From Georgenia yuyongxinii (GTDB lineage Bacteria > Actinomycetota > Actinomycetes > Actinomycetales > Actinomycetaceae): 64,000 nucleotides of DNA. The notes under the pieces are model-generated. The model did not search any database and had not been told where the DNA came from. It saw only the letters and a list, made by a program, of their open reading frames with translations. The position numbers and the translations under genes were made by a program. Location: positions 3,162,001 through 3,226,000 of the forward strand of contig NZ_CP040915.1 of the NCBI RefSeq assembly GCF_006352065.1, written 5' to 3'. How positions within the stretch are numbered: the first letter of the stretch is position 1; every line of letters begins with the position of its first letter. Positions 41,651 to 64,000 of the stretch are shown piece by piece.

Positions 41651-41817
41651 GCCAGCCGTGTCCGGAGTACTGATTTACGGACGTGCGCGCGTCCAGGCAA
41701 CGTGCACACATCTCCTGTCCCGAGGGGCGTACGCTCGAAAGTCATCCGGACCGGAGTACCGCTCACCGATCGAGCGTCCCTCCATCCTCCACAGGAGCGG
41801 GTGACCGAAGGACTTCG

Positions 41818-42588: not shown

Positions 42589-42607
42589 TTCAGCGGTCAC
42601 CGCGCCA

Positions 42608-42687
42608 CCGCGAGCGCGACCAGATTGGCAATCTGGTCGCAAAATCGGGGGGCCGCGAGCGCGACCAGATTGGCAATCTGGTCGCAA
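42608..42687. promoter_or_regulatory. Two 25-bp palindromes in a 35-bp direct repeat (period 45 bp)
   Basis: The 35-bp unit at 42608-42642 recurs exactly at 42653-42687. Each holds a 25-bp palindrome (42616-42640 and 42661-42685) with perfect 12-bp arms (GCGACCAGATTG) around a central G. It sits upstream of the M24 gene, with ATTG/CAAT cores near the centres. It is a plausible operator for the IclR protein, or a mobile REP-like element. Confidence 0.75.
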
Positions 42688-42781
42688 CATGGGGGCTCCA
42701 GGTGGCCCACCTCACACCTCGTGTCCAGCGATACGGGACAGCCCGTGTGAGCGCGGTCACAGCCCTGCTTACTGTCACGCC

Positions 42782-43996: not shown

Positions 43997-44007
43997 GGGG
44001 CAGACCC

Positions 44008-47909: not shown

Positions 47910-48005
47910 CCGCGTCACCACCCGCGCCACGTCCCGACGGCGTCCGGCTCGTCCCGCCGTCGCACCTCGCTCGATCCACACTCCAGAACCGCACATCGCT
48001 CCCCA

Positions 48006-48038
48006 GCCTCGTCGCGCGCGGTACGCGCGCGACGAGGC
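48006..48038 (+). promoter_or_regulatory. Intercistronic hairpin between hyuA and the NCS1 permease
   Basis: A perfect 15-bp stem (GCCTCGTCGCGCGCG) with a GTA loop in the 172-bp gap. It has no T-run and the permease RBS (GAAGGAG) follows 36 bp later. It may attenuate the permease or protect the upstream transcript. Confidence 0.6.
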
Positions 48039-48081
48039 CCGGGAGCCGTGCGCCCTCGGCTCGTATTCGAAGGAGAATGCC

Positions 48082-49634: not shown

Positions 49635-49768
49635 TGCGGTCACCAGACCTGCGCCATGCTCGACGACGTGCTCGAGGCTCACCAGCCCGACTGCGTGCTC
49701 GTCTACGGCGACACCAACTCCAGCCTCGCCGGCCCGGTCTCGGCGGTGAACCTGCACGTGGGGATGTC
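49635..49768 (+). pseudogene. wecB: Fragment of UDP-GlcNAc 2-epimerase
   Basis: A ~45-codon open stretch reads CGHQTCAMLDDVLEAHQPDC followed by VLVYGDTNSSLAGPVSAVNLHV. This is the WecB signature (QT...VLVYGDTNST-LAG). The rest of the ~370-aa enzyme is missing on both sides, and the next ABC permease gene starts in the opposite direction immediately after. It is a dead scrap of a polysaccharide-precursor gene. Confidence 0.8.
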
Positions 49769-49773
49769 CACCG

Positions 49774-50616
49774 TCAGGCCTCCGCCCGCCGGAAACCGAA
49801 CCGAGCCAGGACGGCCGACTCGATCAGGTTGACCACCATGTACAGGCTGATCGAGACGATGGTCGCCACGGCGGCGAGCGCCCACACCTCGCTCATCTTC
49901 GCCTGCGCGACAGCGGCGACGATCGCACGGCCCACGCCCTGCCCCGTCGCAAGCCACTCGGCGATGAGCGCCCCGGTGATCGATCCCGGCACGGCGATGC
50001 GCACGGCGCTGAACAGGGCCGGGACCGATGAGGGCAGCGCTACGCGCAGAAGCGTCGCCAGCGAACCCCCGCCGTACACACTCACCAGCTCGACCATGTA
50101 CGGGGAGACCGACCGGAGGCCGAACACGATCGTCACGAGGGCGGGGAAGACGACGACAAGGCCCCCCATCACCGCGACCGTGGCAGTCTCACGTCCGAAG
50201 ATGAGGATGATCAGCGGGGCGATCGCGATGAGCGGCATCGACTGCACGAGCAGTGCCAGCGGCATGATGGCGTGCTCGAGCGGCCGCACCAAGAGGAACA
50301 GCGCTGCCAGAAGGAGCGCCGCCCCCATGCCGGTAGAGAACCCGATGGAGGCATCGAGCAGAGTCTGACCGAGCTCGCCGAAGACGTAGGCGCGGTTCGC
50401 CTCCGCCTCCTCTCCCATGAAGAGGTATCTCCACACGTCGACCGGCCCCTTGCCCACGAAGGGCGGTACGCGAAGGAGCCAGATCGCTGCCATCCAGACG
50501 ATGATGAGGCTGCCCAGCGCGAGGATTGCCGTCAGCAGGCTGCTGCCCGTCGCACGCAGGACGCTGCTGGTGCCGCGCCGGCGAGCCGGGGCGGTGACCA
50601 TCGTGTTCTCGCTCAT
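49774..50616 (-). CDS. ABC transporter permease, second permease (NMT1 system)
   Basis: A 280-aa permease with six spans and an EAA loop (MVELVSVYGGGSLATLLRVALP). ATG 50616 overlaps the end of the other permease (ATGA). This system, like the one at 21168-23568, encodes two non-identical permeases, implying a heterodimeric channel. Confidence 0.88.
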   Translation of the reverse strand: MSENTMVTAPARRRGTSSVLRATGSSLLTAILALGSLIIVWMAAIWLLRVPPFVGKGPVDVWRYLFMGEEAEANRAYVFGELGQTLLDASIGFSTGMGAALLLAALFLLVRPLEHAIMPLALLVQSMPLIAIAPLIILIFGRETATVAVMGGLVVVFPALVTIVFGLRSVSPYMVELVSVYGGGSLATLLRVALPSSVPALFSAVRIAVPGSITGALIAEWLATGQGVGRAIVAAVAQAKMSEVWALAAVATIVSISLYMVVNLIESAVLARFGFRRAEA

Positions 50617-51455
50617 GCCTCGCTCCTGGATGTCCCGCGCGTCCAAGGGGTGACGAACCGCGAGATGATCGCGATCACCACGAAGCCCAGCCCCGAGCAG
50701 ATCCCCGTCACTAGGGCGATCGCCCACGCGCGGGGCGCCTGCAGGGTCTGCTGGGCGTTGACCAGTGCCGGTCCGATCCCCACGTCCACTCCCCCCATGT
50801 ACTCGCCGATGATCGCCCCGAGGAACGCCAGGGGGGCGGCGATCTTGAGGGCGTTGAGAACGCCCGGCAGCGCGGCGATGCTCCTCACCAGCACGAACTG
50901 CTTCCACCGGCCCCCGCCGTAGACGCGGATCAGATCCAGGCTCGCCGCGTCCGCGGCACGCAGTCCCACGAGTGTCCCGATGACCGTTGTGAAGACGACC
51001 AGCATGGCGCTGAGGAAGACGGCCGTGACGGACGGCTCCCCCGGCTTCGGACTGCCCGCGACGATCCGCACGATCGGCCCGATCGCCACCACCGGGATGC
51101 AGTAGCTCACGGTCGCTATGAGGGTGATGAACCCTTCGAGGCGCGGTGCGAGCACGACGACGCTTGCCAGCACGAGCGCAAGGCCCACACCCCAGGCGAA
51201 ACCGAGCAGCGCCTCGAGGCCGGTCACCGAGATGTGCCGGTACAGGTACGCGGGACCGACCTCCACGATCGCGCCGACCACCTCGGCCGGGTTGGGGATG
51301 GAGCCGCCCTGACCGTTCGGTGCGACCCCGACGTCGGCGAAGACAGTCTCGGCCAGGACCCACCAGGCGACGACGGTGCCGACCACGCCCAGTGCGCCGT
51401 ACAGGCGCTTGACGGGCCACATGCGGGCGGATCCCCTGAGTGTGGGCGCAGTCAC
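50613..51455 (-). CDS. ABC transporter permease, first permease (NMT1 system)
   Basis: A 280-aa permease with six spans and the EAA loop [23 protein letters not shown] 51455 overlaps the ATPase stop (GTGA). It pairs with the permease downstream. Confidence 0.88.
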
Positions 51456-52294
51456 ACCTCACCGTCCACCGGTGTGCCCGCCCCACCGAAGAGGAGGTCG
51501 GCGGCGTGGTCGTGGAGCTCGTGGAACTCGGGACTCCGCATGACGTCCGGTGTCCGTGGGCTCGGCAGGTTGATGTCCATGACCTCCTTGATGCGTCCCG
51601 GGCGGGCCGACATGACTGCCACCCGGTCAGACAGGAAGATTGCCTCGGCGATGCCGTGGGTCACCATGAGGGTGGTCACCGGCTTCTCGCTCCAGATCCG
51701 CAAGAGCTCGACGTTGAGGCGTTGGCGCGTCATGTCGTCCAGCGCACCGAACGGCTCGTCCAGCATCAGCACCGACGGCCGCATGACGAGGGCGCGGGCG
51801 ATCGAGACGCGCTGCCGCATGCCGCCGGAGAGCTGGCCCGGACGTGCCTTCTCGAATCCCCGCAGACCGACGAGGTCGATCAGCTCGTCGATGTAGTCAC
51901 GGTCGACCGAGACCCCAGAGACGTCGAACGGCAGGCGGATGTTCGCCTCGACCGTGCGCCACGGCAGCAGCGCCGAGTCCTGGAACGCGACACCGAGGCG
52001 GTTCTCGTCGCGCAGCTCCTTGGGTGCCTTGCCGTCCACCGTCACGGTGCCGGAGGTTGGTTCGTCGAGCCCAGAGAGCATCCGGAGGATGGTCGACTTC
52101 CCGCACCCGGACGGACCGAGCAGGGAGAGGAAGGTCCCTTGGTCCGTGTCCAGGTCGACGCCGTCGAGCGCGGTGACGGTTTGCCGTCCCTGGGTGAAGG
52201 TCTTGTTCAGGCCACGGAGCTGGATGCCCGTGGCCGTCGCGACACTCTCGTGCAGGCCCGCACGTGCTGTGGTCGAGATGGTCTCTGCCCTCAT
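51452..52294 (-). CDS. ABC transporter ATP-binding protein (NMT1 system)
   Basis: A 280-aa ATPase: Walker [11 protein letters not shown]-loop [11 protein letters not shown], signature LSGGMRQR, Walker B VLMLDEP and MVTHGIAEA. It belongs to the taurine/nitrate/riboflavin-type subfamily. ATG 52294 lies three bases past the receptor stop. Confidence 0.92.
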
Positions 52295-52297
52295 CGC

Positions 52298-53365
52298 TCA
52301 GCCCAGCAGCTCGGGGTTCTCTTCGTAGACCTCTTCCAGCAAGGAGAGGTCGAAGAGCTGGTCGGCAGTGATGTCGACGTCGGCGGCCCCGATGACGTCG
52401 ATGTTCGCCTGGAGGAGCTCTGGGGTGATGGTGAAGAGCCCGTTGCTGTCGGTGTCGGCGGAGACGAGGAGGTCGTTCGCGGCGACGGCCTGCCCGAGCT
52501 CGAGGTCGAAGTTCAGCCCCAGGTCGGCGCCGTACTCCTCCACGGCCAGCCGGGCCGACTCCTCAGAGTCGGCGATGGCGTCGTGCCAACCCCGGATCAT
52601 CGCGCGGAGGAACGCCTTGACCGCCTCCCGTTCGTTGTCGATGGAGTCCTGGGAGACGACCACGGCCTTGGCCACCAGGGGCAGCCCGTTGTCGGCGTAG
52701 AGGAGGTTCGCGACCTCGTAGCCCTGCGACTCCACGATCACGGCCTCGTTGGTGACGTACCCGAGGAAGCCGTCCACGTCACCGGTGATCAGCGACGAGG
52801 GGTCGTACTCGACCGGCACGATCGTGACCGAGTCTCGGTCCAGGCCGTTGGCCTCGAGCAGCGAGTAGAACAGCGGCTCGTTGCCCGTCTGGATCCCGAT
52901 CCGCTTCCCCACGAGGTCCTGTGGAGTGGTGATGTTCGCCTTGTCGGCCAGCGAGATGATCGAGAACGGACTCTTCTGGTACTGCGCTGCCACGATCTTC
53001 ACCGGGGCGCCTTCGTTGGCGACCGCCGGCGCGACCCGCGTGGGGTCGCTGATCCCGGCGAACGCCTGCCCGGAGGCCACGATCGACGGTGTCGCGGCCG
53101 GGCCGGGGATGAGCGTGACCTCGTCGAAGCCCTCCTCGGCGAAGTACCCCTTCGTGTCGGCGAAGTACTCGCCGGCGAACTCCACGGTCTTCACCCAGGA
53201 CAGCTGGACCGAGATGTCGCCGAAGTCGGCCGTCCCCTCGGTGGTTTCCTGCTCGGAAGGCGCGGAGGCAGAACTGCCACCACACGCGGCCATGAGGGTG
53301 GTCGCCGCCGCGAGAGCGAGGACGGACGTGGTGCGACGACGGTGTCGCGTCAGGCGCTGAGACAT
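52298..53365 (-). CDS. NMT1/THI5-like ABC substrate-binding lipoprotein
   Basis: A 355-aa receptor. Signal and lipobox LMAAC lie near residue 27. The mature part is NMT1/THI5-like: VQLSWVKTVEFAGEYFADTK, then GYFAEEGFDEV, and DGFLGYVTNEAVIVE. Relatives bind pyrimidines, riboflavin precursors or similar ring compounds. GAGGAG nine bases upstream supports ATG 53365. It heads the four-gene importer and is preceded by a shared promoter motif and a palindrome. Confidence 0.88.
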   Translation of the reverse strand: MSQRLTRHRRRTTSVLALAAATTLMAACGGSSASAPSEQETTEGTADFGDISVQLSWVKTVEFAGEYFADTKGYFAEEGFDEVTLIPGPAATPSIVASGQAFAGISDPTRVAPAVANEGAPVKIVAAQYQKSPFSIISLADKANITTPQDLVGKRIGIQTGNEPLFYSLLEANGLDRDSVTIVPVEYDPSSLITGDVDGFLGYVTNEAVIVESQGYEVANLLYADNGLPLVAKAVVVSQDSIDNEREAVKAFLRAMIRGWHDAIADSEESARLAVEEYGADLGLNFDLELGQAVAANDLLVSADTDSNGLFTITPELLQANIDVIGAADVDITADQLFDLSLLEEVYEENPELLG

Positions 53366-53424
53366 TGGGGGTACTCCTCGTCGATGGGGAGGGTCCGTCC
53401 GTCCACTAGGACAGGACGAATGCG

Positions 53425-53436
53425 AATCAATACCGA
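53425..53436 (-). promoter_or_regulatory. Promoter motif shared with the hydantoinase operon
   Basis: On the minus strand TCGGTATTGATT. The identical 12 bases occur at 59085-59096 upstream of the carbamoyl-amidase gene in the same orientation. It lies ~60 bp from the receptor ATG and may include the -10 box (TATTGA) or an operator. Confidence 0.5.
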
Positions 53437-53468
53437 ACAGTAGGGGTGGGACGCATCACATAGCAAGG

Positions 53469-53484
53469 ACTTCTGATCAGAAGT
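53469..53484. promoter_or_regulatory. 16-bp perfect palindrome
   Basis: ACTTCTGATCAGAAGT lies about 105 bp upstream of the NMT1 receptor ATG. It is a plausible dimer site for the XRE-cupin regulator encoded just behind it. Confidence 0.6.
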
Positions 53485-53748
53485 TCTAGCCGGTTACGAG
53501 CGGGTAAACGGGCTTGATCCAGTGCCCGGACGTGCGCCCGTGGTTACGCGCCCAAGGCGCGCACCGCAGGCCCGGACGGGTCGGCCTCAGCGCGCTGCTC
53601 TGTGCGCGTCCTGAAGCTGGTCCGCGGGGGAAGCACGTGGGTCACGACTGCGAGAACGGTGGCCAGGCGGGGCATCAACGGCGATGCCCGCCCGACGCGG
53701 ATCAGTCCCGCGGCCCGGACAAAGGAAGCGTCGGTCGAGTAGTGGGGG

Positions 53749-54354
53749 TCAGTAGATCGGCGGGGCGCTCGAGAAGAGGATCACGCAGGGAGCGTCCGCC
53801 TTGTTGGCGAAGCGGTGCGGGGTGGCGGGGTCGAAAGACAGGCAGTCACCCTCGTAGAGGGTCATCTCGTCCCCGTCGATGTTCACCTCCAGCTCGCCCT
53901 GCTCGACGATCATGCTCGTCTCACCGGAGCCGTAGGTGTGCATCTCGGGCCCGGTCGAACCGCCGGGAGCGACGACGGACCGGATGACCTGCAGGTGCGA
54001 GAAGTCTCGCGGGGTCAGGAGCGTCTCGTCCCACTGCCGGTTCGGGTGCACCAGCCGTGGTCCGTCACCCCGGCGGAGGAGCCGGGATGTCGAGTGGTGC
54101 TCGAACAGGCTGCCGATCGTCCGCCCGAGGGAGTTGGCGATCCTCATCAGGCTGGCGATCGAAGGGCTCGCCGTGCCGCGTTCGACCTGGGACAGGAAGC
54201 TCACCGACACATCGCTCTGGGCGGCGAGCGCCCGCAGCGACATGTTCTGCTTGAGCCGATACTCCCGGATCGTCGCGCCGAGCTCACGCTCGTCGAACGA
54301 CGCTTGAGTCGCCGAGAACTCGTGCGCAGGCAGCGGATTGGAGGGTTCAGCCAT
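53749..54354 (-). CDS. XRE-cupin transcriptional regulator
   Basis: A 201-aa regulator. The XRE HTH (residues ~27-80) reads ATIREYRLKQNMSLRALAAQ and DVSVSFLSQVERG. A cupin domain follows (GPEMHTYGSGETSMIVEQGE, GDCLSFDPATPHRFAN). Family members such as PuuR sense small amines or acids. ATG 54354 lies nine bases after the ATZ/TRZ gene stop, so it is the last gene of the six-gene operon. The nearby palindromes suggest it controls both this operon and the NMT1 importer. Confidence 0.88.
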   Translation of the reverse strand: MAEPSNPLPAHEFSATQASFDERELGATIREYRLKQNMSLRALAAQSDVSVSFLSQVERGTASPSIASLMRIANSLGRTIGSLFEHHSTSRLLRRGDGPRLVHPNRQWDETLLTPRDFSHLQVIRSVVAPGGSTGPEMHTYGSGETSMIVEQGELEVNIDGDEMTLYEGDCLSFDPATPHRFANKADAPCVILFSSAPPIY

Positions 54355-54363
54355 GCCGGTAGC

Positions 54364-55710
54364 CTAACTATTCTCGGGATGGGTGCCCGTGATGGGCGAC
54401 CATCGCGCGGTCAGTGCGTCCACCCGAGCGGCCGTTGCCTCGGTATCGATCGTGAGCACGCGTCCTTCCTCGACGACCGTCCGGCCTCCGACGAGCACCC
54501 GGTCGATCGCCTCAGGCAGCATCGAGTAGATGATGTTCTGGGTGACGGTTCGGCGCGGCCGCAGCGACAGGGCGGTGAGGTCGAGGGAGACGATGTCGGC
54601 CTTGTACCCAGGGGCGATCTTCCCGACGGGCATGCGCAGCGCCCGCCCGCCTGCGGAGGTGCCCATGCGCAGGACGTCGACAGCGGTCATCGCTCGGCCG
54701 TCGCGTGCGGTCGCCTTGGCCAGGAGCGCGGCCTGGCGCATCTCGTCGAAGAGCGAGCGGCGTGAGTTCGCGCCGCCGGCGTCCGTTCCCAGACACACCG
54801 GGATGCCCCGCTCGACCATCTGCGCGACCGGGGCGATCCCCCCGCCGAGGAACGCGTTCGTCGAGGGGTTGTGCACCACCCCCGAGCCGCCCTCGGCGAG
54901 CAGCGCCAGGTCGTCCTCGTCGACGCGGACCGCGTGCACGGCCAGGAGGCGCTCGTCGAGAACCCCGACGGCGTCGAGCCGGCCGACGGGGCTCTGCCCG
55001 AAGCGCTCCCGCGAGACGTCCACCTCCCCTTGGGAGTCCGCCACGTGGATGTGCAGGGGCACGTCGTACTCGCCGGCGAGCGCGGACCCGAGCCGGAGCA
55101 TCTCCTCGCTGGTGCCAAGGACCGAGTGGGGTGCGGGGTGCACCTCCAGCAGCGGATCGGCTGCGGTGGCCTCCCGGAGCTCGCGGAAGTTCCGCTCGAA
55201 GAGCTCGGGAGTCTCCAGGTACCTCGTCGGCCCACCCGCGGCGTCGAACATGCACCTGGCAAAGACCGTGCGCATGCCTACGCGCCGGCCGGCGTCGAGG
55301 ATCGCCCAGGCGTTCTCGTTCCCGCCGTCGTGGAGGTAGAAGTACTCCACCGCCGTCGTGATGCCCATCCGAAGCATCTCGGCGAAGTCGTACTCGGTGG
55401 CGAGTGCGAGCTCGTCGGAGCCGAGCTGGGCGGCGGTGGGGTGCACGAGGCCACCCATCCACGCCATGAATGGCTGGTCGTCACCGAACCCGCGCAGCAG
55501 GGTCTGGAAGGCATGCCCGTGCCCGTTGACGCCGCCGGGGACGATCGCCCGGTCGTCCCAGTGCTCGACGTCGCCCCCCGCCTCAGCGGGCAGGACCGCA
55601 TCGGCCCGGCCGGCGGCGACGATCTCGTCACCGTCGAGGACGACCGCCGCGCCGGCGAGCCACTCGTCGTCGACGAATGCCAGGGGCGCCGTAATCACCC
55701 GCCTGCTCAT
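54364..55710 (-). CDS. ATZ/TRZ-type amidohydrolase (aminohydrolase/deaminase)
   Basis: A 448-aa metal-dependent hydrolase. His64 and His66 are in NGHGHAF. The other metal and substrate residues are in LHIHVADSQGEVD, LLAVHAVRVDEDDL, VVHNPSTNAFLGGGI and LGTDAGGANS. The subfamily includes chlorohydrolases and cytosine, guanine and 8-oxoguanine deaminases, which remove exocyclic amino groups from N-heterocycles. ATG 55710 overlaps the NTF2-like stop. It probably prepares an aminated ring for the hydantoinase step. Confidence 0.88.
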   Translation of the reverse strand: MSRRVITAPLAFVDDEWLAGAAVVLDGDEIVAAGRADAVLPAEAGGDVEHWDDRAIVPGGVNGHGHAFQTLLRGFGDDQPFMAWMGGLVHPTAAQLGSDELALATEYDFAEMLRMGITTAVEYFYLHDGGNENAWAILDAGRRVGMRTVFARCMFDAAGGPTRYLETPELFERNFRELREATAADPLLEVHPAPHSVLGTSEEMLRLGSALAGEYDVPLHIHVADSQGEVDVSRERFGQSPVGRLDAVGVLDERLLAVHAVRVDEDDLALLAEGGSGVVHNPSTNAFLGGGIAPVAQMVERGIPVCLGTDAGGANSRRSLFDEMRQAALLAKATARDGRAMTAVDVLRMGTSAGGRALRMPVGKIAPGYKADIVSLDLTALSLRPRRTVTQNIIYSMLPEAIDRVLVGGRTVVEEGRVLTIDTEATAARVDALTARWSPITGTHPENS

Positions 55711-56111
55711 CGCGCCTCCGCGCCGAGCAGGGCGTCGACGGCGGCCTGGTCGGACTCGAAGAACCGCAGCGTCGCCAGTGCGCCGTCACGCACGGTCGAG
55801 ACGATCACCCGCTGCCACTCCACGGTCTCCCCCGCCACCGTGGCGCTGGCGCGGGCGTAGGTCACCACGTGGTCGTCGCTGGCGAGCAGGTCGATCGGCT
55901 CGAGCCGGAAGGTGCCGCCCGTCAGCTGCGCCATCGTCCTGCCGAAGGTGACGACCCCGTCGTGCCTCTCGTAACGGCCCGCGGCGGGATGGGCACCCGG
56001 CACGTCGAGGACGACGTCGTCGGCGTAGTAGGGCATGGCCGCCGGCGGCCCGCCCTCCTTCATCGCCTGGAAGTAGTCCCGCAGGACCTGGAGGTTCTGG
56101 TCGGCGCTCAT
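55707..56111 (-). CDS. NTF2/SnoaL-like protein
   Basis: A 134-aa cone-shaped alpha/beta-barrel protein beginning MSADQNLQVLRDYFQAMKEG. It contains YYADDVVLDVPGAHPAAGRY and a late VEWQRVIVSTVRDGALATLR. NTF2-like folds act as hydratases, isomerases or cyclases, or simply bind a ligand. Start ATG 56111 overlaps the preceding amidohydrolase stop (ATGA). Role in the pathway unknown; a spontaneous isomerisation step could be helped here. Confidence 0.82.
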   Translation of the reverse strand: MSADQNLQVLRDYFQAMKEGGPPAAMPYYADDVVLDVPGAHPAAGRYERHDGVVTFGRTMAQLTGGTFRLEPIDLLASDDHVVTYARASATVAGETVEWQRVIVSTVRDGALATLRFFESDQAAVDALLGAEAR

Positions 56112-57484
56112 GCCTTGTCCTTTCCACGCACGTACCGGCCGGTGCCCGGTGCGGCGATCAGCTCGTGGTCCTTCACGACGTGCTCCCCGCGCACGAAGGT
56201 GTGCCGGGCCCAACCTCGCAGCGGTTGCTCGGCGTAGATCGAGTAGTCGGAGTTGGTGCCGAGCCACTCGGGGTCGGCGACGCGCTCGTTCTCGAGGTCG
56301 ACGAGGGTCAGGTCGGCGTCGAAGCCGACGGAGATGTCGCCCTTGCGCTCGAGGCCGAGCAGCTCGGCGGGGCGCGCGCTGGTCAGCTCCGCGATGCGCC
56401 CCAGCGGGATGCCGCGCTCGAGGTGCCCGTGGGTGAGCAGGACGGGCAGGATCGTGGGTGAGCCGGGGAAGCCCGCGCTCGCGCTCCAGATGCTGCCGTC
56501 CTTCGTGGCCCGCTTCCGGCTGACGTGGTCGGAGGCGACGGTGTCGACGGTCCCGTCGGCGATCGCCTCCCAGATCGGCTCGACCTGGTCCGCCCGGCGC
56601 AGCGGCGGGTTGACCTTGCCCACGATGCCCTCGGAGTAGTCGACGGTGTGGGTGAGGTAGTGCGGGCAGGTCTCGACGGACATGTCGAGGTCGGGGAACT
56701 GCCCCCGAGCCGTGCGGATCTCCTCCAGGGACTCGCGGCTGCTGATGTGCACGAGGTACACGCGCGTGCCCAGCTCGTTGGCGAGGTACGCCACGCGCCG
56801 TACCGCCTCGGCCTCCACGTACGGGGGCCGGGCGTCGTCCCACGCTGCCAGGTCGTCCCGGCCGGCACGCTGCAGACCGTCCCGCAGGTACGAGACGACC
56901 TCCGGGTTCTCGGCGTGGACGAACAGCAGGTCGTCCAGCTCGGAGACGTCCCCGAAGATCTGGTACATCTTGCCGTCGTCGGTGCCCTCGACGCCGAGGT
57001 ACTTGCCCTCGTCGCCTCGGAAGTGCATGAAGTACTTGTAGACACCCACGTCGTAGCGCTCGCGCAGCGCTGGGAGCTCGGCCAGGTGCTCCGGCGTCAT
57101 CAAGGTGAGGTGGAACCCGAAGTCGATCCGTGACTGTGCCGAGGCGGACTCCAGGTGCTCGGCGAGCATGTCGCCGTAGGCCCCGCCGGTGGCGAGGATG
57201 TTGAACATGGTGGTCACCCCGCCGAGGGCCGCGGCCCCGGTCTCGGTGCTGTACTCCTCCAGGCCGTTGCCGGCGCCGAGGTGGGTGTGCCCGTCGACCA
57301 CCCCGGGCAGGATGGTGAGGCCGGTGGCGTCGAGCACCTCCTTGGCGTCCACCGGCGCGCCCGGCTCGAGGATCGCGCTGATGCGGCCGTCACGGATACA
57401 GATGTCGCTCGCGACCGCCTGCTGACGCGGTCGGGCGACGATGCCGCCTCGGATGACGAGGTCCGCCGGGGCGGTAGACGTCAT
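56108..57484 (-). CDS. D-hydantoinase/dihydropyrimidinase family amidohydrolase
   Basis: A 458-aa cyclic amidohydrolase. Metal ligands are His66 and His68 (DGHTHLG). The carbamylated Lys is Lys150 (GVYKYFMHF), as in classical hydantoinases. FVHAENPE, YLVHISSRES and VASDHVSRKR hold the remaining ligands. It should open a hydantoin, dihydropyrimidine or allantoin ring to an N-carbamoyl acid. ATG 57484 overlaps the next amidohydrolase stop (ATGA). Confidence 0.92.
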   Translation of the reverse strand: MTSTAPADLVIRGGIVARPRQQAVASDICIRDGRISAILEPGAPVDAKEVLDATGLTILPGVVDGHTHLGAGNGLEEYSTETGAAALGGVTTMFNILATGGAYGDMLAEHLESASAQSRIDFGFHLTLMTPEHLAELPALRERYDVGVYKYFMHFRGDEGKYLGVEGTDDGKMYQIFGDVSELDDLLFVHAENPEVVSYLRDGLQRAGRDDLAAWDDARPPYVEAEAVRRVAYLANELGTRVYLVHISSRESLEEIRTARGQFPDLDMSVETCPHYLTHTVDYSEGIVGKVNPPLRRADQVEPIWEAIADGTVDTVASDHVSRKRATKDGSIWSASAGFPGSPTILPVLLTHGHLERGIPLGRIAELTSARPAELLGLERKGDISVGFDADLTLVDLENERVADPEWLGTNSDYSIYAEQPLRGWARHTFVRGEHVVKDHELIAAPGTGRYVRGKDKA

Positions 57485-58359
57485 GATGGGTCCTTTCGTT
57501 CTGCGCTCAGCGCGGGGTGCAGGTCAGGGAAGAGGATGCTGAGGGGCCGCGCGTCGAGAATCTGGTCGACGAGCGGGGGTTCGACCGGCGGGGCGCCGGC
57601 AGGCGGGGACAAGACGAGGTCGCGGAGCTGGCGGATGCAGTCCGCCGGCGTGTAGATCGGGAAGTCGGAGCCGAAGAGCACGCGTTCGCCCACCCCGTAG
57701 TCGGTGAGCCCGCGCAGGATCGTGGCGAGCTGGTGCGGACGGCCGTAACGGGCGGACAGATCGGTCCACACGTTGGGGTTCTTGAACATCACCGCCGCCG
57801 TCTCATGGCTCCAGGGCTGGCCGGCGTGGGCGATGATGATGGAGGTGTCGCGGAAGCTGCGGGCGACCCGATCGAGCAGGATCGGCTGGGCGTACTCCAG
57901 GGCACCCCCGCGCAGGAAGACCCCTCCCTGGTGGAACATCAGCGCCAGCCCCCGGTCGGCGGCGGCGGTGTACACCGCCCACGCGGCGTCGCTGTGCGGG
58001 TGGAAGCCCTGGTAGGGCGGGGAGAGCTTCAGCCCGCGCAGGCCGAGGTCTGCGGCGTGGTGGACGCGGGCGACGGCGTGGGGATCGGCGGGGTCGACGC
58101 TGCCGAAGCCGACGATCCGCCCGGGGTGCGTCGCGGCGTACTCGGCGACGTACTCGTTCGGGATGTCGAGGTCGATCTCGCACGCCACGAGCGCGACCAC
58201 CACGGCGGCGTCGATCTCGCCCTCGGCCATGGCGAGCTGGTGGGCCTCCCAGGACCCGTCCCGGCTGGGGTGCGCGCCGACGTTCGCGTCGAGCTCCGGT
58301 CCCCAGGTGGGGCCGAGGTGTCGCGGCTCCCAGACGTGCGAGTGCCAGTCGACCCTCAC
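57481..58359 (-). CDS. Amidohydrolase-2 family metal-dependent hydrolase
   Basis: A 292-aa TIM-barrel hydrolase. The HxH motif is at the very start (DWHSHVWEP), GLKLSPPYQGFHPHSD is central, IIIAHAGQPWSHE carries a His, and LFGSDFPIYT holds the Asp. Relatives decarboxylate or hydrolyse ring-cleavage products (ACMSD/amidohydrolase-2). GTG 58359 overlaps the isochorismatase-type stop (GTGA). Substrate unknown. Confidence 0.85.
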   Translation of the reverse strand: MRVDWHSHVWEPRHLGPTWGPELDANVGAHPSRDGSWEAHQLAMAEGEIDAAVVVALVACEIDLDIPNEYVAEYAATHPGRIVGFGSVDPADPHAVARVHHAADLGLRGLKLSPPYQGFHPHSDAAWAVYTAAADRGLALMFHQGGVFLRGGALEYAQPILLDRVARSFRDTSIIIAHAGQPWSHETAAVMFKNPNVWTDLSARYGRPHQLATILRGLTDYGVGERVLFGSDFPIYTPADCIRQLRDLVLSPPAGAPPVEPPLVDQILDARPLSILFPDLHPALSAERKDPS

Positions 58360-59051
58360 CGGGCCGCCCGGGCCAGGTAGGAGACGGCGTCGGCGGCGGG
58401 CACGACGTCGGCGTACTTGCTCGCCAGGTCGAAGAGGGAGACCGCGTGCACGCGCTCGGTGCGGTCGTAGACGGCGTCGGCGACCACACCCACCTTGAAC
58501 CCGTAGGAGAAGGCGTCGACGGCGGAGGCGCGCACGCACCCGCTGGTGGTGGCGCCGGTGAGGATGACGGTGTCGACGCCGAGCTCGACCAGGTGGGTGA
58601 GCAGCCGGGTGGCGAAGAACGCGCTGGGGTGGTCCTTCGGCACGACCAGGTCACCCGGCTGCGGCGCCGTCTCGGCCGGGAACTCGTACGCCGTCGGCTC
58701 GGGCGAGGCCAGGCTCGGCGACTTGCCGCGGAACCCGCCGGGGGTGTCGCCGTCCTTGGGAGCCACGTGCGGGTAGAGCACGGGGACCCCGGCCGAACGG
58801 GCGGCGGTGAGCACCTCGGAGATCCGGTCGACAGCGGGCCAGCCGCGCTCGCCACATGCCGTGGGGTACTCGCGCATCGCCTCCTGGATCGGGGCGCGCT
58901 CATGCCCGAGCGTGCGGTACTGCACGTCGATGACCAGGACCGCCGGGCGCGTGCCGAACCCGGCGGTGCGCCCGAATCCGGCTGCGTCGTAGAGTTGGAC
59001 GTCTTCTTCGGAGATGTGGCCCAGCCACGGGGACGTCGTTGTCGCAAGCAT
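58356..59051 (-). CDS. Isochorismatase-fold cysteine hydrolase (N-carbamoylsarcosine amidase-like)
   Basis: A 231-aa alpha/beta hydrolase with the Asp42-Lys139-Cys172 triad (VIDVQYRT, VVPKDHPS, TTSGCVRAS). The block GCVRASAVDAFSYGFKVGVV resembles N-carbamoylsarcosine amidase and RutB-type ureidoacrylate hydrolase. It should hydrolyse an N-carbamoyl compound to amine, CO2 and NH3, the natural step after the hydantoinase. ATG 59051 was chosen over 59090 because the leader is Arg-rich. It is the first gene of the six-gene operon. Confidence 0.9.
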   Translation of the reverse strand: MLATTTSPWLGHISEEDVQLYDAAGFGRTAGFGTRPAVLVIDVQYRTLGHERAPIQEAMREYPTACGERGWPAVDRISEVLTAARSAGVPVLYPHVAPKDGDTPGGFRGKSPSLASPEPTAYEFPAETAPQPGDLVVPKDHPSAFFATRLLTHLVELGVDTVILTGATTSGCVRASAVDAFSYGFKVGVVADAVYDRTERVHAVSLFDLASKYADVVPAADAVSYLARAAR

Positions 59052-59084: not shown

Positions 59085-59096
59085 AATCAATACCGA
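59085..59096 (-). promoter_or_regulatory. Promoter motif shared with the NMT1 importer
   Basis: TCGGTATTGATT on the minus strand, 34 bp upstream of the carbamoyl-amidase ATG. It is identical to 53425-53436 and suggests co-regulation of the importer and the enzymes. Confidence 0.5.
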
Positions 59097-59115: not shown

Positions 59116-59943
59116 TCACGAAGCTGGACGGGGCCCACCCCAACCGAACCCCGTCACGGCTACCGGGAGCTCGGTCGCCTGCGCCGGGCTCAGCAGCGCG
59201 TGCTGTGTCGCGGTGGCGACCACGGTGCCGCTGGCGTCCACCAGCTCCACCTGCCCGACAGCCAGGTCGCCGCACATTCGGGCGGTGACGCGCTGCCGCA
59301 GCCATGTCGAGCTCGTCAACGCGTGCACGGCGACCGCGAGCGACACCGTGGCGACACGGAACGGCCCTAACACCCCCGCGGCGAGGAGCGCCGGGCCGAT
59401 CACGTCCGCGGCCACGAGGTACCAGCGCGGATCCAACACGCGGCGCCCGCCGGCCTCGTACCACCACTCGTGGCGCGGCCGGATCCAGGCATCGACCACA
59501 CCGCGAGCCGCACCCGAACGTGTGCCCGCGGGCCACCCACCGACCAGCCGGAAGTCCGCCATCGGCGAGAGGTCACCGAAAGCCGGCTCGGCAGCCGGTG
59601 GCAGCTCGGCCGGCTCGACGGCGTCGGTCCGCACGAGGCGCTCCGGCGCCCCCCACGTGACATGGGCGCTGGCCAGCGCCTTCTGCTCACCCAGGACCAG
59701 CCGGGTGGTCGCCGTGGTACGGCCACGATGGACCGTCTCGACGCCGGCCGGCAGCACCCCCGTCGGCACGGGACGGTGGAAGCTCACGGCCACCATGAGC
59801 GGCACCCAGCTTCCGCCCAAGGCGCGCGCCCCGGCTCCCACCAGGCCGGCGGCGACCGCACCGCCGAACATCGCGCCGAGCGACCACGACTCGCTGAGCT
59901 CGACGAAGACACTCGCGGGGGCTCTTGCCATCATGCTCACCAT
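59116..59943 (-). CDS. Acyl-CoA thioesterase (hotdog, TesB-like)
   Basis: A ~275-aa double-hotdog thioesterase. The N-terminal part has ESWSLGAMFGGAVAAGLVGA and VAVSFHRPVPTGVL; the C-terminal part has TVSLAVAVHALTSSTWLRQR. It should hydrolyse an acyl-CoA to the free acid. Starts at 59943, 59934 or 59931 are all possible (ATG-rich region, no clear RBS). It is divergent from the LLM monooxygenase, with a palindrome between them. Confidence 0.75.
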   Translation of the reverse strand: MVSMMARAPASVFVELSESWSLGAMFGGAVAAGLVGAGARALGGSWVPLMVAVSFHRPVPTGVLPAGVETVHRGRTTATTRLVLGEQKALASAHVTWGAPERLVRTDAVEPAELPPAAEPAFGDLSPMADFRLVGGWPAGTRSGAARGVVDAWIRPRHEWWYEAGGRRVLDPRWYLVAADVIGPALLAAGVLGPFRVATVSLAVAVHALTSSTWLRQRVTARMCGDLAVGQVELVDASGTVVATATQHALLSPAQATELPVAVTGFGWGGPRPAS

Positions 59944-59965
59944 CGTGCAGTATTCGTGCAATCTT

Positions 59966-59982
59966 GTGAAGTAGCACTTCAC
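59966..59982. promoter_or_regulatory. 17-bp palindrome in divergent promoter
   Basis: GTGAAGT-AGC-ACTTCAC lies between the thioesterase and the LLM monooxygenase genes, 35 bp before ATG 60018. It is probably the operator for a regulator not in the window. Confidence 0.6.
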
Positions 59983-60017: not shown

Positions 60018-61214
60018 ATGAAGTTCGACTACCTCTTTACGATGGACAACCCCGGCAACGTGTACCGGTACGGGGACCTGCTCGACATGGCGACCGAGCA
60101 GATCGTCTTCCTGGACGAGGCCGGCTTCGGCACCTTGTGGCAGGGGGAACACCACTTCGGTGGTGAGGGGTACGAGATCAACCCCAACCCTGTTCTTGCC
60201 GGAGCCTACGCCGCCGGCATCACGAAGAACCTGCGCTTGGGCACCGGCGCGGTCACGCCGCCGTTCTGGCACCCGCTTCGCCTCGCCGAGGATCTGGCCC
60301 TCCTGGACCAGTTCAGCAAGGGCCGGCTCGACGTCGGCGTGGCCCGTGGGATCCAGCCGCGCGAGGCGACCAACTTCAACCTGGCCGGGGACCGCCGCGA
60401 CGAGGAGAAAAACTGGCGGTTCTTCCTCGAGCAGCTCGACATCATCAAGAAGGCCTGGACGCAGGAGGGCTTCACCCACGAGGGCGAGTTCTACCGCTTC
60501 CCGCACCCTGGGGTGAAGGACTCCGCCACCTGGTACCCCCGGAACCCGCTGTGGCGCGACGAGAACGACGAGTACGTCGGCATGTCGATCATCCCCAAGC
60601 CGTACCAGAAGCCGTACCCCTCGATGTGGAACCTGCTCGACAAGACGCCCGGCTTCAAGCGGAGCGCCGAGGAGCGGATGAACGTGATCACGTGGCTTCG
60701 CTCCCGCGAGGGGCTGCGCGAGGTGATGGACGTCTACCAGGAGGCGCTCAGCGAGACCCTCGGTCGCCCGGCGTTGCGCGGCGAGGGCGTCTCGCTCATG
60801 CGGATGGTCTACGTGGCCGAGACCGACGAGCAGGCACACCGGGAGGCCCGCCAGCCCATCGAGCAGCTGTACAACTACGTCGGCGGCGTGCGCCCGCGCG
60901 ACATGTTCGCCAACCCGGGTGAGAAGCTCACCGACGAGGAGCAGACCGGCTCGTGGTGGGACTTCCTCTACCCGCGCGAGCACCTGTTCATCGGCTCCCC
61001 GGAGACCGTGCGCGCCCAGATCGAGCACCTGAACTCCGAGTACGGCGTCGACCGCGTCGTGCTGTGGTCCTGGATCCCGGGGCTCACGCAGGAGCAGGTC
61101 ATGCGTTCGAACACCTTGTTCGCCGACGAGGTCATGCCCCACTTCGGCCGCGAGTGCCTTCCCGCGGTCACGCCCGCGATGCCCGAGAACTTCGGCCCGC
61201 TGACGGGAGACTGA
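60018..61214 (+). CDS. LLM-class flavin-dependent monooxygenase
   Basis: A 398-aa TIM-barrel luciferase-like monooxygenase. GFGTLWQGEHHFGGEGYE, RLAEDLALLDQFSKGRLD and GVARGIQPREATNF are typical. These enzymes use reduced flavin and oxygen to oxidise or cleave small substrates. ATG 60018 follows GGAGAGGCACTCCCC. RidA follows after three bases, so the pair recalls RutA/RutC in uracil use, although the sequence is not RutA-like in detail. Confidence 0.88.
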   Translation: MKFDYLFTMDNPGNVYRYGDLLDMATEQIVFLDEAGFGTLWQGEHHFGGEGYEINPNPVLAGAYAAGITKNLRLGTGAVTPPFWHPLRLAEDLALLDQFSKGRLDVGVARGIQPREATNFNLAGDRRDEEKNWRFFLEQLDIIKKAWTQEGFTHEGEFYRFPHPGVKDSATWYPRNPLWRDENDEYVGMSIIPKPYQKPYPSMWNLLDKTPGFKRSAEERMNVITWLRSREGLREVMDVYQEALSETLGRPALRGEGVSLMRMVYVAETDEQAHREARQPIEQLYNYVGGVRPRDMFANPGEKLTDEEQTGSWWDFLYPREHLFIGSPETVRAQIEHLNSEYGVDRVVLWSWIPGLTQEQVMRSNTLFADEVMPHFGRECLPAVTPAMPENFGPLTGD

Positions 61215-61217
61215 CCG

Positions 61218-61616
61218 ATGCGCAGGATCATCCAGGTGGCCAATGGCCCCCAGTACGACGAGACCTACCCGCTGTCCCAGGGGGTGGAGACCGAGACGTT
61301 CGTCTTCGCCAACGGGATGGCGTTCGACAACGACACCCGTACCCGCATGGCAGAAGCGGTGACCATCGCGGACGAGACCCGCATCGTCATGGAGTCCATC
61401 GGCTCGGTCCTCGCCGACGCGGGCGCCACGATCAACGACATCGTCAAGACCACCGTCTACCTCTCGGAACGGTCGTACTACGACGAGATGAACTCGGTCT
61501 ACAAGACCTACTGGCAGCCGGGGCAGTACCCCACCCGGGCCACCGTCTACGTCGGCATCGGCAGCGAGTGCCGGGTCGAGATCGACGTGGTGGCGGTCAA
61601 GGGGGCGTCACGATGA
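61218..61616 (+). CDS. RidA/YjgF family protein
   Basis: A 132-aa Rid protein: LSQGVETETFVFANGMAFD, YPTRATVYVGI and ECRVEIDVVAVKG carry the trimer pocket and the key Arg. In Rut-type pathways RutC speeds breakdown of a reactive peracid or enamine. It overlaps the following ALDH start (ATGA). Confidence 0.9.
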   Translation: MRRIIQVANGPQYDETYPLSQGVETETFVFANGMAFDNDTRTRMAEAVTIADETRIVMESIGSVLADAGATINDIVKTTVYLSERSYYDEMNSVYKTYWQPGQYPTRATVYVGIGSECRVEIDVVAVKGASR

Positions 61617-63070
61617 CCGTCCTGACGCTTCCCGCTGTCGCCGCGTCGATCATCGGCGACGAGGAGATCACCGACGCCGCCGAGACCCTCGAGGTCACCA
61701 ACCCGGCCGACGGCAGCACGATCGGCCGGGTGCCGCTGGCGGACGCGGCACTCGTCGAGCACGCCGTCGCCACCGCTGCGGCAGCCTTCCCGGCCTGGGC
61801 CGCCACGCCCGCCACGACTCGCGCCCGGCTGCTCCTGGCGCTCGGCGCGGCACTCGAGGAGCGGTCACCGGAGCTCGCCGAGCTCATCAGCCTGGACAAC
61901 GGCAAGACGCTGGCCGACGCCCGGGCGGAGCTGGCCCGCGCCCGTGAGCACCTCGAGGCGGCCGCCACCGCGCCGGCGCTCCTCGCCGGCGACACCACGA
62001 TGGACGTCCTGCCCGGCCTCGACGCCGCCATGGTGCGGGAACCGATCGGGGTGTGCGCCGTCGTCGCCCCGTTCAACTTCCCCATCATGACGGGGCTCAT
62101 CTACTGGTCCTGGGCGCTGGCCTGCGGGAACACCGTCATCATCAAGGCGTCGGAGCAGGCGCCGTACGCGGCCACCCGCCTGGCGCGCATCGCCAGGGAG
62201 GTGGGCTTCCCCCCCGGCGTGATCAACGTCGTCCACGGCGCACGTGCCGCCGTCGAGGCGCTGTGCGACTCCCCCGGGGTCGCCGCGATCTCCCTGGTCG
62301 GCTCCTCGGCGACGGCGCAGGCGGTGTACGCCCGCGCCAGCGCCACGGGCAAGCGCGTGCACGCCGCCGGCGGCGCGCGCAACCCGCTGGTGGTCCTCCC
62401 GGACGCGCCGCTGGAGGGCACCGCCGACGCGATCGTCACGTCCGCCTACACCATGGCCGGGCAGCGGTGCCTGTCCGCCAGCATCGTCGTCACCGTCGGA
62501 GGCCGTCACGCCGAGCTCGTCGACCTCGTCGCGGAACGGACCCGCCGCCTCGTCGTCGGCCCCGGCTACGACGCCGCCACTCAGGTGCCGCCGCTCATCT
62601 CCGGGCACGCGGTGGAGGCGCTCGAGCGGACGGTCGCCGAGGCGATCGCCGCCGGCGCCACCGCCGTCGTGGACGGCCGCCACCCGGACGCGCCGGCGGG
62701 TGGGTACTACCACGGCCCCACCCTGCTCGACGGCGTGGCCCCGGACAGCGACCTGCTGGCCCGGGAGAGCTTCGGGCCGCTGGTGTCCGTCACCCACGCG
62801 GACGACCTCACCGGCGCACTCGAGATCGTCAACTCCAGCCCGTTCGGCAACGCCGCCTCGATCTTCACCGGGTCCGGCGCCGCCGCGCGGCGGTTCTCCC
62901 GCGAGGCGCAGGTGGGCAACGTCGGCGTGAACGTGGGCGTGGCCGCCCCCACGGCTCACGTCGGCTTCGGTGGCCGACGACGGTCGTTCTACGGGACGAT
63001 CCACTCCCAGGGCCGGCACGCCGTCGAGTTCTACACGGACATCAAGGCGGTGCTGACGCGATGGCCGTGA
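61613..63070 (+). CDS. Aldehyde dehydrogenase, MmsA-like (CoA-acylating type)
   Basis: A 485-aa ALDH. PFNFPIMTGLIYWSWAL, GGARNPLVVLPDAPL and AGQRCLSAS (catalytic Cys) match methylmalonate-semialdehyde dehydrogenases. The classical LELGGK Glu is absent, replaced by HAAGGARN, as in the CoA-dependent subfamily. It should turn a malonate- or methylmalonate-semialdehyde-like product into an acyl-CoA. The divergent thioesterase could release the acid. ATG 61613 overlaps RidA. Confidence 0.88.
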   Translation: MTVLTLPAVAASIIGDEEITDAAETLEVTNPADGSTIGRVPLADAALVEHAVATAAAAFPAWAATPATTRARLLLALGAALEERSPELAELISLDNGKTLADARAELARAREHLEAAATAPALLAGDTTMDVLPGLDAAMVREPIGVCAVVAPFNFPIMTGLIYWSWALACGNTVIIKASEQAPYAATRLARIAREVGFPPGVINVVHGARAAVEALCDSPGVAAISLVGSSATAQAVYARASATGKRVHAAGGARNPLVVLPDAPLEGTADAIVTSAYTMAGQRCLSASIVVTVGGRHAELVDLVAERTRRLVVGPGYDAATQVPPLISGHAVEALERTVAEAIAAGATAVVDGRHPDAPAGGYYHGPTLLDGVAPDSDLLARESFGPLVSVTHADDLTGALEIVNSSPFGNAASIFTGSGAAARRFSREAQVGNVGVNVGVAAPTAHVGFGGRRRSFYGTIHSQGRHAVEFYTDIKAVLTRWP

Positions 63071-64000
63071 CCCTGACCGAGGACGCGCGGGACCTCCTCA
63101 CGTTCCCGGTGCAGATCGGGCCCGCAAAGATCCGCAACCGGGTGTTCGTCGCGCCCCACACCACCAACTTCGGTCAGGCGGGCGCGAACCTGGTCACCGA
63201 CAGGCACCTGGACTACCACCGCGCTCGCGCGCGTGGCGGCGCGGGACTCATCATCACCGAGGGGATCCGGGTCCATCCCACGAGCCTGCGCCAGCTGGGC
63301 CTCCAGGCGTACTCCGACGACGCAGTGCCGGGCCTGACCGCCCTCACCGAGGCCGTGCACGCGGAGGGGGCCGCGATCTTCGCGCAGATCCTGCACACCG
63401 GCCGGCACTCGGGCGACGAGCACTACGGCTCCTGGGCGCCCTCCCCCACCCCGTGGGCCACGGGGGCACCGGTCCCGCACGCCATGAACGCCTTCGATCT
63501 CGAAACCCTCGTGGCGTCCTACGCCGCCACCGTGGAACGGGTGATCCAGGCCGGCTTCGACGGGATGGAGGTGCACCTCGGCCACGGCCACCTGCTGCAC
63601 CAGTTCCTCTCCCCCGTTACGAACGCCCGCGGCGACGGGTACGGCGGTGACCCGGCGAGCCGGCTTCGCCTCGCCCTAGAGGTGCTGCGCACGGTCCACG
63701 ACGTGGTCGCGGGCCGGGTGGCGCTGGGCGTGCGGCTCAGCGCCGACGAGTTCCTCCCGGGCGGGCTCGGGCCCGAGGAGATGGTGGACATCATCCGCCG
63801 GCTTCTCGGGGAGGTCCCGCTGGACTTCCTCCACGTGAGCCACGCCGCCTACATCGGCACGTCCTCGCTGTCGACCCAGATGGCGGACATGAGCTACGGC
63901 CGTGCGCCGTTCCGCCACCTGCCCGCGCGGTTCAAGCAGGAGTTTCCCGAGCTGACGGTGCTCGCGGTCTGCCGCCTCGACACCCCCGAGACCGGCGCCG
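63061..64000 (+). CDS. Old yellow enzyme / NADH:flavin oxidoreductase (3' end outside window)
   Basis: The first 313 residues of an FMN TIM-barrel enzyme, beginning MAVTLTEDARDLLTFPVQIG. The fold is shown by IRNRVFVAPHTTNFG, GLIITEGIRVHPTS, GFDGMEVHLGHGHLLHQFLSP and the late VLAVCRLDTPETGA. The His/His pair in HLGHGHLLHQF suits OYE and 2,4-dienoyl-CoA reductase or amine-demethylase types. ATG 63061 overlaps the ALDH stop by 10 bp. Whether it carries the C-terminal FAD/4Fe-4S domains cannot be seen. Confidence 0.88.
   Translation, partial: MAVTLTEDARDLLTFPVQIGPAKIRNRVFVAPHTTNFGQAGANLVTDRHLDYHRARARGGAGLIITEGIRVHPTSLRQLGLQAYSDDAVPGLTALTEAVHAEGAAIFAQILHTGRHSGDEHYGSWAPSPTPWATGAPVPHAMNAFDLETLVASYAATVERVIQAGFDGMEVHLGHGHLLHQFLSPVTNARGDGYGGDPASRLRLALEVLRTVHDVVAGRVALGVRLSADEFLPGGLGPEEMVDIIRRLLGEVPLDFLHVSHAAYIGTSSLSTQMADMSYGRAPFRHLPARFKQEFPELTVLAVCRLDTPETGA

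Follow-up and report, generated by a model that had tools for sequence, protein, structure and literature searches.

The reductive pyrimidine route uses dihydropyrimidinase and beta-ureidopropionase, and the creatinine/N-methylhydantoin route involves N-carbamoylsarcosine amidase. In the Rut system of Escherichia coli (rutABCDEFG), RutA and RutF open uracil to ureidoacrylate, RutB converts this to aminoacrylate, and RutC leads on to malonate semialdehyde, according to the accessible part of PMC8113886. The accessible part of PMC7662398 indicates that the first mechanism proposed for RutA left peracid reduction to an adventitious or separate activity, and that a flavin N5-oxide or N5-peroxide acts in the mechanisms proposed later. 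With either of these, a separate peracid reductase would be less needed. We analysed a 64,000-nucleotide stretch of Georgenia yuyongxinii DNA (contig NZ_CP040915.1, positions 3,162,001 to 3,226,000; hereafter the window) that carries a cassette of about 17 genes, which together probably import and degrade a nitrogen-containing ring compound. Its gene content, synteny, motif conservation and insertion are evident from the DNA itself. Our preferred reading, in which our confidence is evenly poised, is that the cassette is an acquired catabolic regulon for an amino-substituted N-heterocycle, most likely pyrimidine-like, and works in a Rut-like manner.

The cassette consists of three operons. The amidase operon, on the minus strand, has six genes joined by four 4-bp start/stop overlaps, with a 9-nt gap at the last junction; they encode an isochorismatase-type amidase, an Amidohydro_2 enzyme, a hydantoinase-like enzyme, a SnoaL-like protein, a TRZ/ATZ-type enzyme and an XRE-cupin regulator candidate. 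The importer operon, packed as tightly, encodes an NMT1/THI5-type binding protein, an ATPase and two permeases of an ABC transporter. An earlier note on this DNA had located the six coupled genes and the four-gene NMT1 importer correctly, but the bounds that it gave to the unit (49774-59051) were too narrow, took in about half of the cassette and missed a divergent operon, which spans 60018 to ~66867 and runs past the window end. This operon encodes a luciferase-like flavin monooxygenase (LLM), a RidA-family deaminase, a methylmalonate-semialdehyde-dehydrogenase (MMSDH)-like aldehyde dehydrogenase (ALDH), an Old Yellow Enzyme (OYE)-family flavoenzyme, a short-chain dehydrogenase/reductase (SDR), an Ohr protein and a flavin reductase. 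The right-arm genes were read from locus L041 (window coordinate = 61999 + x).

With the Amidohydro_2 protein as query, 23 loci were found in the genome collection. Eight full related loci (L003-L010), from several actinobacterial genera, hold all 13 core genes (LLM, RidA, ALDH, amidase, Amidohydro_2, hydantoinase-like, SnoaL, ATZ-type, XRE-cupin, binding protein, ATPase and two permeases) at 52-85% amino-acid identity, which bears out the earlier suggestion that the amidase and importer units belong together. LLM-RidA-ALDH is divergent in all eight, and the gene order is the same except for an inverted importer operon in L006. The amidase, importer and LLM promoters of L003 and L004 are identical, so the eight represent seven independent loci; L004 was omitted from alignments and promoter counts as a duplicate of L003. 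A further locus, L011, is a 3.9-kb contig with the middle part of the cassette. The OYE and SDR genes were present in 8/8 full related loci, Ohr in 7/8 (it was not seen in L005) and the flavin reductase in 4/8; in L007, L008 and L010 the fetched DNA stops at the Ohr match or shortly after it, which leaves the reductase position beyond view. In the left flanks of L003, L005 and L008, the divergent operon includes a GMC oxidoreductase-like gene, which in the scan of L003 was MftG-like at a score below the cut-off, and the flanks of L003 and L008 also have a second ALDH; neither gene was seen among the open reading frames of the G. yuyongxinii right arm.

Two, perhaps three, of the promoters share the element YCGGTATWGGTT. 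As had been claimed, a motif lies upstream of both the amidase and the importer operon, in the same orientation and within 60 bp of the start codons; this motif, TCGGTATTGATT, is indeed shared and conserved in both promoters. Exactly two exact copies of TCGGTATTGATT occur in the 4,171,640-base genome, both at the cassette; the reversed-pattern control gave 0, and the expected number per genome is 0.03 from base composition and 0.001 from a trinucleotide model. In 8/9 amidase promoters, including that of the window, 33-35 nt separate the end of the element from the start; L011 differs. A matrix was built from nine amidase-promoter sites and then tested on the importer promoters, where its best match lay on the same strand in 8/8 (the window and seven loci; shuffle p 0.003-0.050); these p values are not independent, because the two sets share the window 11-mer and the loci include five from related Actinoplanes-type genomes. 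The distance from importer element to start is 59-65 nt in six promoters, 72 in L006 and 86 in L005. Although the importer operon of L006 is inverted, the element still precedes it in the right orientation. Before LLM, five Actinoplanes-type loci have a 9-10/11 copy at 20-23 nt, and L005 has a 9/11 copy, of an 11-letter consensus picked by eye from these promoters; shuffled promoters reached this consensus in 21% of cases at 8/11, 2.5% at 9 and 0.2% at 10. For the LLM promoter, the five Actinoplanes-type loci confound the matrix test, since their best match is the amidase-side site on the opposite strand of the same DNA.

The XRE-cupin protein would be the likeliest binder of YCGGTATWGGTT, a pairing that we infer. 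It is possible, though not probable, that the motif is instead part of ordinary promoters (-35/-10 elements) and no regulator site: as judged by eye, it abuts TTGACA before the amidase gene, with TACGGT 17 nt further on, just before the ATG, and this spacing is constant. However, the importer copy has nearly the same 11 letters and does not stand beside TTGACA, and the exact 12-mer is confined to the cassette. The palindrome ACTTCTGATCAGAAGT, which the earlier note had offered alongside the XRE-cupin gene as the source of regulation, does exist and occurs only once in the genome, but it is not conserved: the 150 nt preceding the importer contained no perfect palindrome of at least 10 bp in any of the seven related loci examined. 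It is thus a weak candidate operator. An inverted repeat, ATTCC-N9-GGAAT, occurs just downstream of the shared motif in the importer promoters of L003, L007, L008 and L009, which are 4/8 of those examined and all Actinoplanes-type. The coordinates of all these features are given in Table 1.

Table 1. Features of the cassette and its left edge, in window coordinates.
Feature	Position	Strand	Detail
wecB remnant, 121 bp, left edge of cassette	49637..49757	+	81% identical (130 alignment columns, 9 gaps)
ABC permease 2	49774..50616	-	PF00528
ABC permease 1	50613..51455	-	PF00528
ABC transporter ATPase	51452..52294	-	PF00005
NMT1/THI5-type substrate-binding lipoprotein	52298..53365	-	PF09084 2.9e-44
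Shared motif TCGGTATTGATT before importer operon	53425..53436	-	exact; ends 59 nt before ATG
16-bp palindrome ACTTCTGATCAGAAGT	53469..53484		unique in genome at up to 2 mismatches
XRE-cupin regulator candidate	53749..54354	-	HTH_3 and Cupin_2
TRZ/ATZ-type deaminase-like amidohydrolase	54364..55710	-	PF01979 3.3e-53
SnoaL-like/NTF2-fold protein	55707..56111	-	PF12680 2.1e-11; start set by ATGA overlap
Allantoinase/dihydropyrimidinase-like cyclic amidohydrolase (hydantoinase-like)	56108..57484	-	PRK06189 and 1gkr matches
Amidohydro_2 enzyme, putative decarboxylase or hydrolase	57481..58359	-	presumably COG2159-like
Isochorismatase-type cysteine amidase (N-carbamoylsarcosine amidase/RutB superfamily)	58356..59051	-	PF00857 1.8e-30
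Shared motif TCGGTATTGATT before amidase operon	59085..59096	-	exact; ends 33 nt before ATG
Acyl-CoA thioesterase-like gene, optional member	59116..59982	-	match in 3/9 related loci (L005, L006, L011)
Weak third copy CAGTATTCGTG before divergent operon	59948..59958	+	8/11 letters; shuffle p 0.053
Luciferase-like flavin monooxygenase (LLM)	60018..61214	+	
RidA-family enamine/imine deaminase	61218..61616	+	conserved arginine in PTRAT segment
MMSDH-like ALDH	61613..63070	+	TIGR01722 and PDB matches
OYE-family flavoenzyme	63061..64000, on to ~65118 beyond window	+	
SDR; Ohr; flavin reductase	65115-65870; 65886-66359; 66352-66867		after OYE, beyond window

Among the NCBIfam matches listed, to which the cut-offs below refer, no cassette protein met an equivalog cut-off. 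The best PDB match of the amidase was N-carbamoylsarcosine amidohydrolase 26st (114 bits), and its nearest solved relatives also include 4l07/4l08 and 3ot4, which we take to be maleamate amidases; its score against the RutB equivalog (47.2 bits, cut-off 377.95) indicated a likeness at superfamily level only. The hydantoinase-like enzyme scored 280.7 bits with PRK06189 (cut-off 631) and 236.6 with dihydropyrimidinase TIGR02033, short of 393.25. It matched L-hydantoinase 1gkr at 1.7e-59, with the metal-ligand residues kept as judged by eye, and lies nearest to L-hydantoinase and allantoinases while staying under every equivalog cut-off. The ATZ-type enzyme (PRK09045, 275.9 against a cut-off of 540; PDB matches 3lnp, 4dzh and 4f0r) is near the methylthioadenosine/S-adenosylhomocysteine-deaminase and 8-oxoguanine-deaminase groups, likewise under their equivalog cut-offs. 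An AlphaFold model of the Amidohydro_2 protein (predicted local distance difference test score, pLDDT, 82.8) superposed on decarboxylases, including isoorotate decarboxylase, ACMSD and dihydroxybenzoate decarboxylases, and also on putative pyrone-dicarboxylate hydrolases and isoaspartyl dipeptidase; because of these latter matches, its decarboxylase role is a lead only.

In the divergent operon, LLM is 77-85% identical in 9/9 related loci (partial in L011). The arginine of the PTRAT segment of RidA is present in 8/8 sequences, and RidA scored 44.1 with the RutC model (cut-off 169.1). The ALDH came practically to the cut-off of the MMSDH model TIGR01722 (446.3 against 448.5), and its ten best PDB matches were all MMSDH. 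Ordinary ALDHs carry a general-base glutamate at a position where this ALDH has alanine in 8/8 sequences, consistent with CoA-dependent chemistry; the second ALDH of L003 reads LELGG there. Ohr met the TIGR03561 subfamily cut-off (163.3 against 88.85), the sole curated model that a cassette protein reached. The flavin reductase scored 55.7 with the RutF model (cut-off 254.75) and is nearer to HsaB/FerA. A blastp comparison with E. coli K-12 paired the amidase with RutB (26%, 1e-13), RidA with RutC (27%, 2e-11) and the reductase with RutF (26%, 8e-14). The binding protein of the importer matched the formylaminopyrimidine-binding protein 3ix1 (4e-19), 4nmy (2.2e-17) and yeast-type THI5 proteins in the PDB, and a profile search with it returned 4nmy first and 3ix1 second.

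The earlier statement that the genes can deaminate, open and decarbamoylate a ring holds in so far as the amidase keeps its D, K and C segments in 9/9 sequences and Amidohydro_2 its metal-ligand residues in 13/13; it leaves out the oxidative part of the gene set, namely LLM, flavin reductase, Ohr, OYE, SDR, MMSDH-like ALDH and RidA. With these included, we infer the substrate and an order of steps. The NMT1-type ABC system would import the compound and the ATZ-type enzyme would deaminate it. LLM, fed by the flavin reductase, could then cleave a ring C-N bond by oxidation, in the manner of RutA, and Ohr may clear a peracid or hydroperoxide. The hydantoinase-like enzyme would open a cyclic (reduced) amide or ureide, possibly one that OYE and SDR have reduced beforehand, and the isochorismatase-type amidase would free the carbamoyl or amide nitrogen. 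RidA would hydrolyse the enamine, and the MMSDH-like dehydrogenase would convert a malonate-semialdehyde-type product to an acyl-CoA. Amidohydro_2 probably strips a ring or side-chain carboxylate.

The pyrimidine-like reading draws its support from the 13-gene synteny, the RutB, RutC and RutF matches, the MMSDH-like ALDH, the pyrimidine-binding-protein relative of the importer and the conservation of the motif. Several observations weigh against it. LLM has no RutA match (best blastp E 1.5) and no RutA model among its 22 model matches, and its reaction is only putative; the amidase is nearer to N-carbamoylsarcosine amidohydrolase than to RutB. The sulfonate and nitrate importer families, too, resemble the importer genes at scores below the cut-offs, and an AlphaFold model of the binding protein (pLDDT 57) was discarded because its quality was too low for its pocket to be analysed. 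In the window and in L006 the third motif copy is a weak match (8/11 each), and it was not found in L011 (6/11). Exact CGGTATWGGTT matched 7 times in the whole genomes of six relatives, with 4 of these matches at the cassette, and the reversed control matched 6 times; L031 and L033 were checked against L011 in this count, and in G546 the only 2 matches were both at the cassette. A promoter consensus scan found 0 promoters and a terminator scan 0 terminators, so the TTGACA-N17-TACGGT arrangement and the leaderless reading are to be taken as drawn by eye.

The cassette might instead serve an aromatic or pyridine-type ring, which we consider improbable. The lower 2-aminomuconate route comprises ACMSD, a dehydrogenase and a RidA-type deaminase; on this model, LLM would open the ring, Amidohydro_2 decarboxylate, RidA deaminate and the ALDH oxidise, with the amidase acting on a maleamate-like half amide. 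The superposition of Amidohydro_2 on ACMSD and dihydroxybenzoate decarboxylases agrees with such a route, as do the other 14 loci (L012-L025, 40-50% identity), which keep RidA (14/14) and LLM (13/14) around Amidohydro_2 and whose fetched stretches showed no match to the amidase, hydantoinase-like, SnoaL, ATZ-type or binding-protein genes. However, the ALDH is nearest to the CoA-acylating MMSDH type, suiting a C3 unit, and the ureide-type amidohydrolases would be left without a role. The same 14 loci often hold a second RidA.

The surroundings of the cassette bear on two further explanations. An insertion of ~25.5 kb (41,660 to 67,128, the right end in L041) lies between a conserved left gene and wecB. 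The empty site was found in the same-genus loci L057 and L059, where the match to 40536-41658 is ~40 bp from the wecB match; the other two same-genus relatives fetched (L058 and L060) have wecB but gave no match to the left gene. Comparison with the intact wecB beyond the right edge revealed a wecB remnant between the cassette and a second N-compound module, and at least two insertions are therefore likely. This module (42491-49557) comprises an M24/creatinase-like peptidase (42491-43996), HyuB/HyuA (43885-47909; HyuA caprolactamase-like) and an NCS1-like permease (48082-49557).

These neighbours adjoin the cassette in the same insertion and, together with the N-carbamoylsarcosine amidohydrolase that is the best solved relative of the amidase, could point to a creatinine, N-methylhydantoin or hydantoin route, in which an N-carbamoyl-amino-acid (N-carbamoylsarcosine-type) amidase and the hydantoinase-like enzyme would work with the left-hand HyuA/HyuB, M24 and NCS1 genes. 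As candidate core members, HyuA, HyuB, M24 and NCS1 were rejected: they had no match at E 1e-5 in the fetched flanks of 8/8 full related loci. Such a route, moreover, needs no LLM, RidA, Ohr or MMSDH-like enzyme, and we regard it as unlikely. That loosely related modules gathered by chance in an insertion hotspot is very unlikely, for although the island has two modules with a wecB fragment between them, the amidase, importer and divergent operons stay together in 8/8 full related loci from several actinobacterial genera, and both main promoters carry the shared motif.

The cassette is rare and apparently acquired. At E <= 1e-80, in class, family and phylum counts that include the window's own genome, the Amidohydro_2 protein occurred in 1/394 genomes of the class, in 2/396 of the phylum sample (one of the two at 50% identity) and in 1/151 of the family sample, which included all 9 of the genus and thus gives 1/9 for the genus; it occurred in 6/67 genomes of an Actinoplanes-type genus. 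No Amidohydro_2 or LLM relative at >=60% identity was found in 72,556 plasmid records, a result that gives no sign of a plasmid carrier.

A more specific form of the pyrimidine-like reading, which we hold to be doubtful, is an oxidative route, independent of RutA, for a modified aminopyrimidine such as the pyrimidine half of thiamin or a related vitamin or antimetabolite. Ohr would be a dedicated pathway enzyme that reduces a peracid formed by LLM, and the XRE-cupin protein would sense an intermediate to control all three promoters. By our reasoning, an Ohr peroxiredoxin would fit a peracid-reduction role in the operon. Whatever its substrate, the cassette is a compact genetic unit, with an importer, a regulator candidate, three operons and a full enzyme set in a rare block that is conserved in several actinobacterial genera. 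If the proposed route is true, it would add a new oxidative N-heterocycle pathway, give functions to anonymous subfamilies (this LLM, Amidohydro_2, SnoaL and OYE) and could reveal the job of an Ohr protein inside a catabolic operon.

The earlier view that no named pathway has this gene set agrees with the equivalog results and with our search of open-licence PMC text, where strict term combinations found no described pathway with the set, which is weak evidence of absence. The kpi cluster of Arthrobacter, for 4-hydroxypyridine, has a monooxygenase and an amidohydrolase-family enzyme, and the accessible part of its description contains no isochorismatase, RidA or luciferase terms (PMC7356986). 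Both it and the cassette are actinobacterial N-heterocycle clusters, but their gene sets differ. The importer shares an NMT1/THI5-type binding protein and ABC partners with the formylaminopyrimidine importer, presumably ThiXYZ-type; the similarity is distant only and the cassette ligand putative. With the creatinine/N-methylhydantoin route the cassette shares an amidase of the same family, whereas the ATP-dependent-type HyuAB of that route lies outside the conserved cassette. The reductive pyrimidine route resembles it in a dihydropyrimidinase/allantoinase-family enzyme and a decarbamoylating-type amidase, but neither dihydropyrimidine dehydrogenase nor beta-ureidopropionase is among the annotated cassette genes. 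The likeness to Rut extends to a flavin monooxygenase with its flavin reductase, an isochorismatase-type amidase, a Rid-family deaminase, a malonate-semialdehyde-type end, and a dedicated importer and regulator. In contrast to Rut, an ALDH replaces RutE, an ABC importer replaces RutG, no RutD match is present, and ATZ, hydantoinase-like, Amidohydro_2, SnoaL, OYE, SDR and Ohr proteins are added. Judged by its genes, the cassette is Rut-like in logic but is not a member of the Rut family of systems, because its monooxygenase is not RutA.

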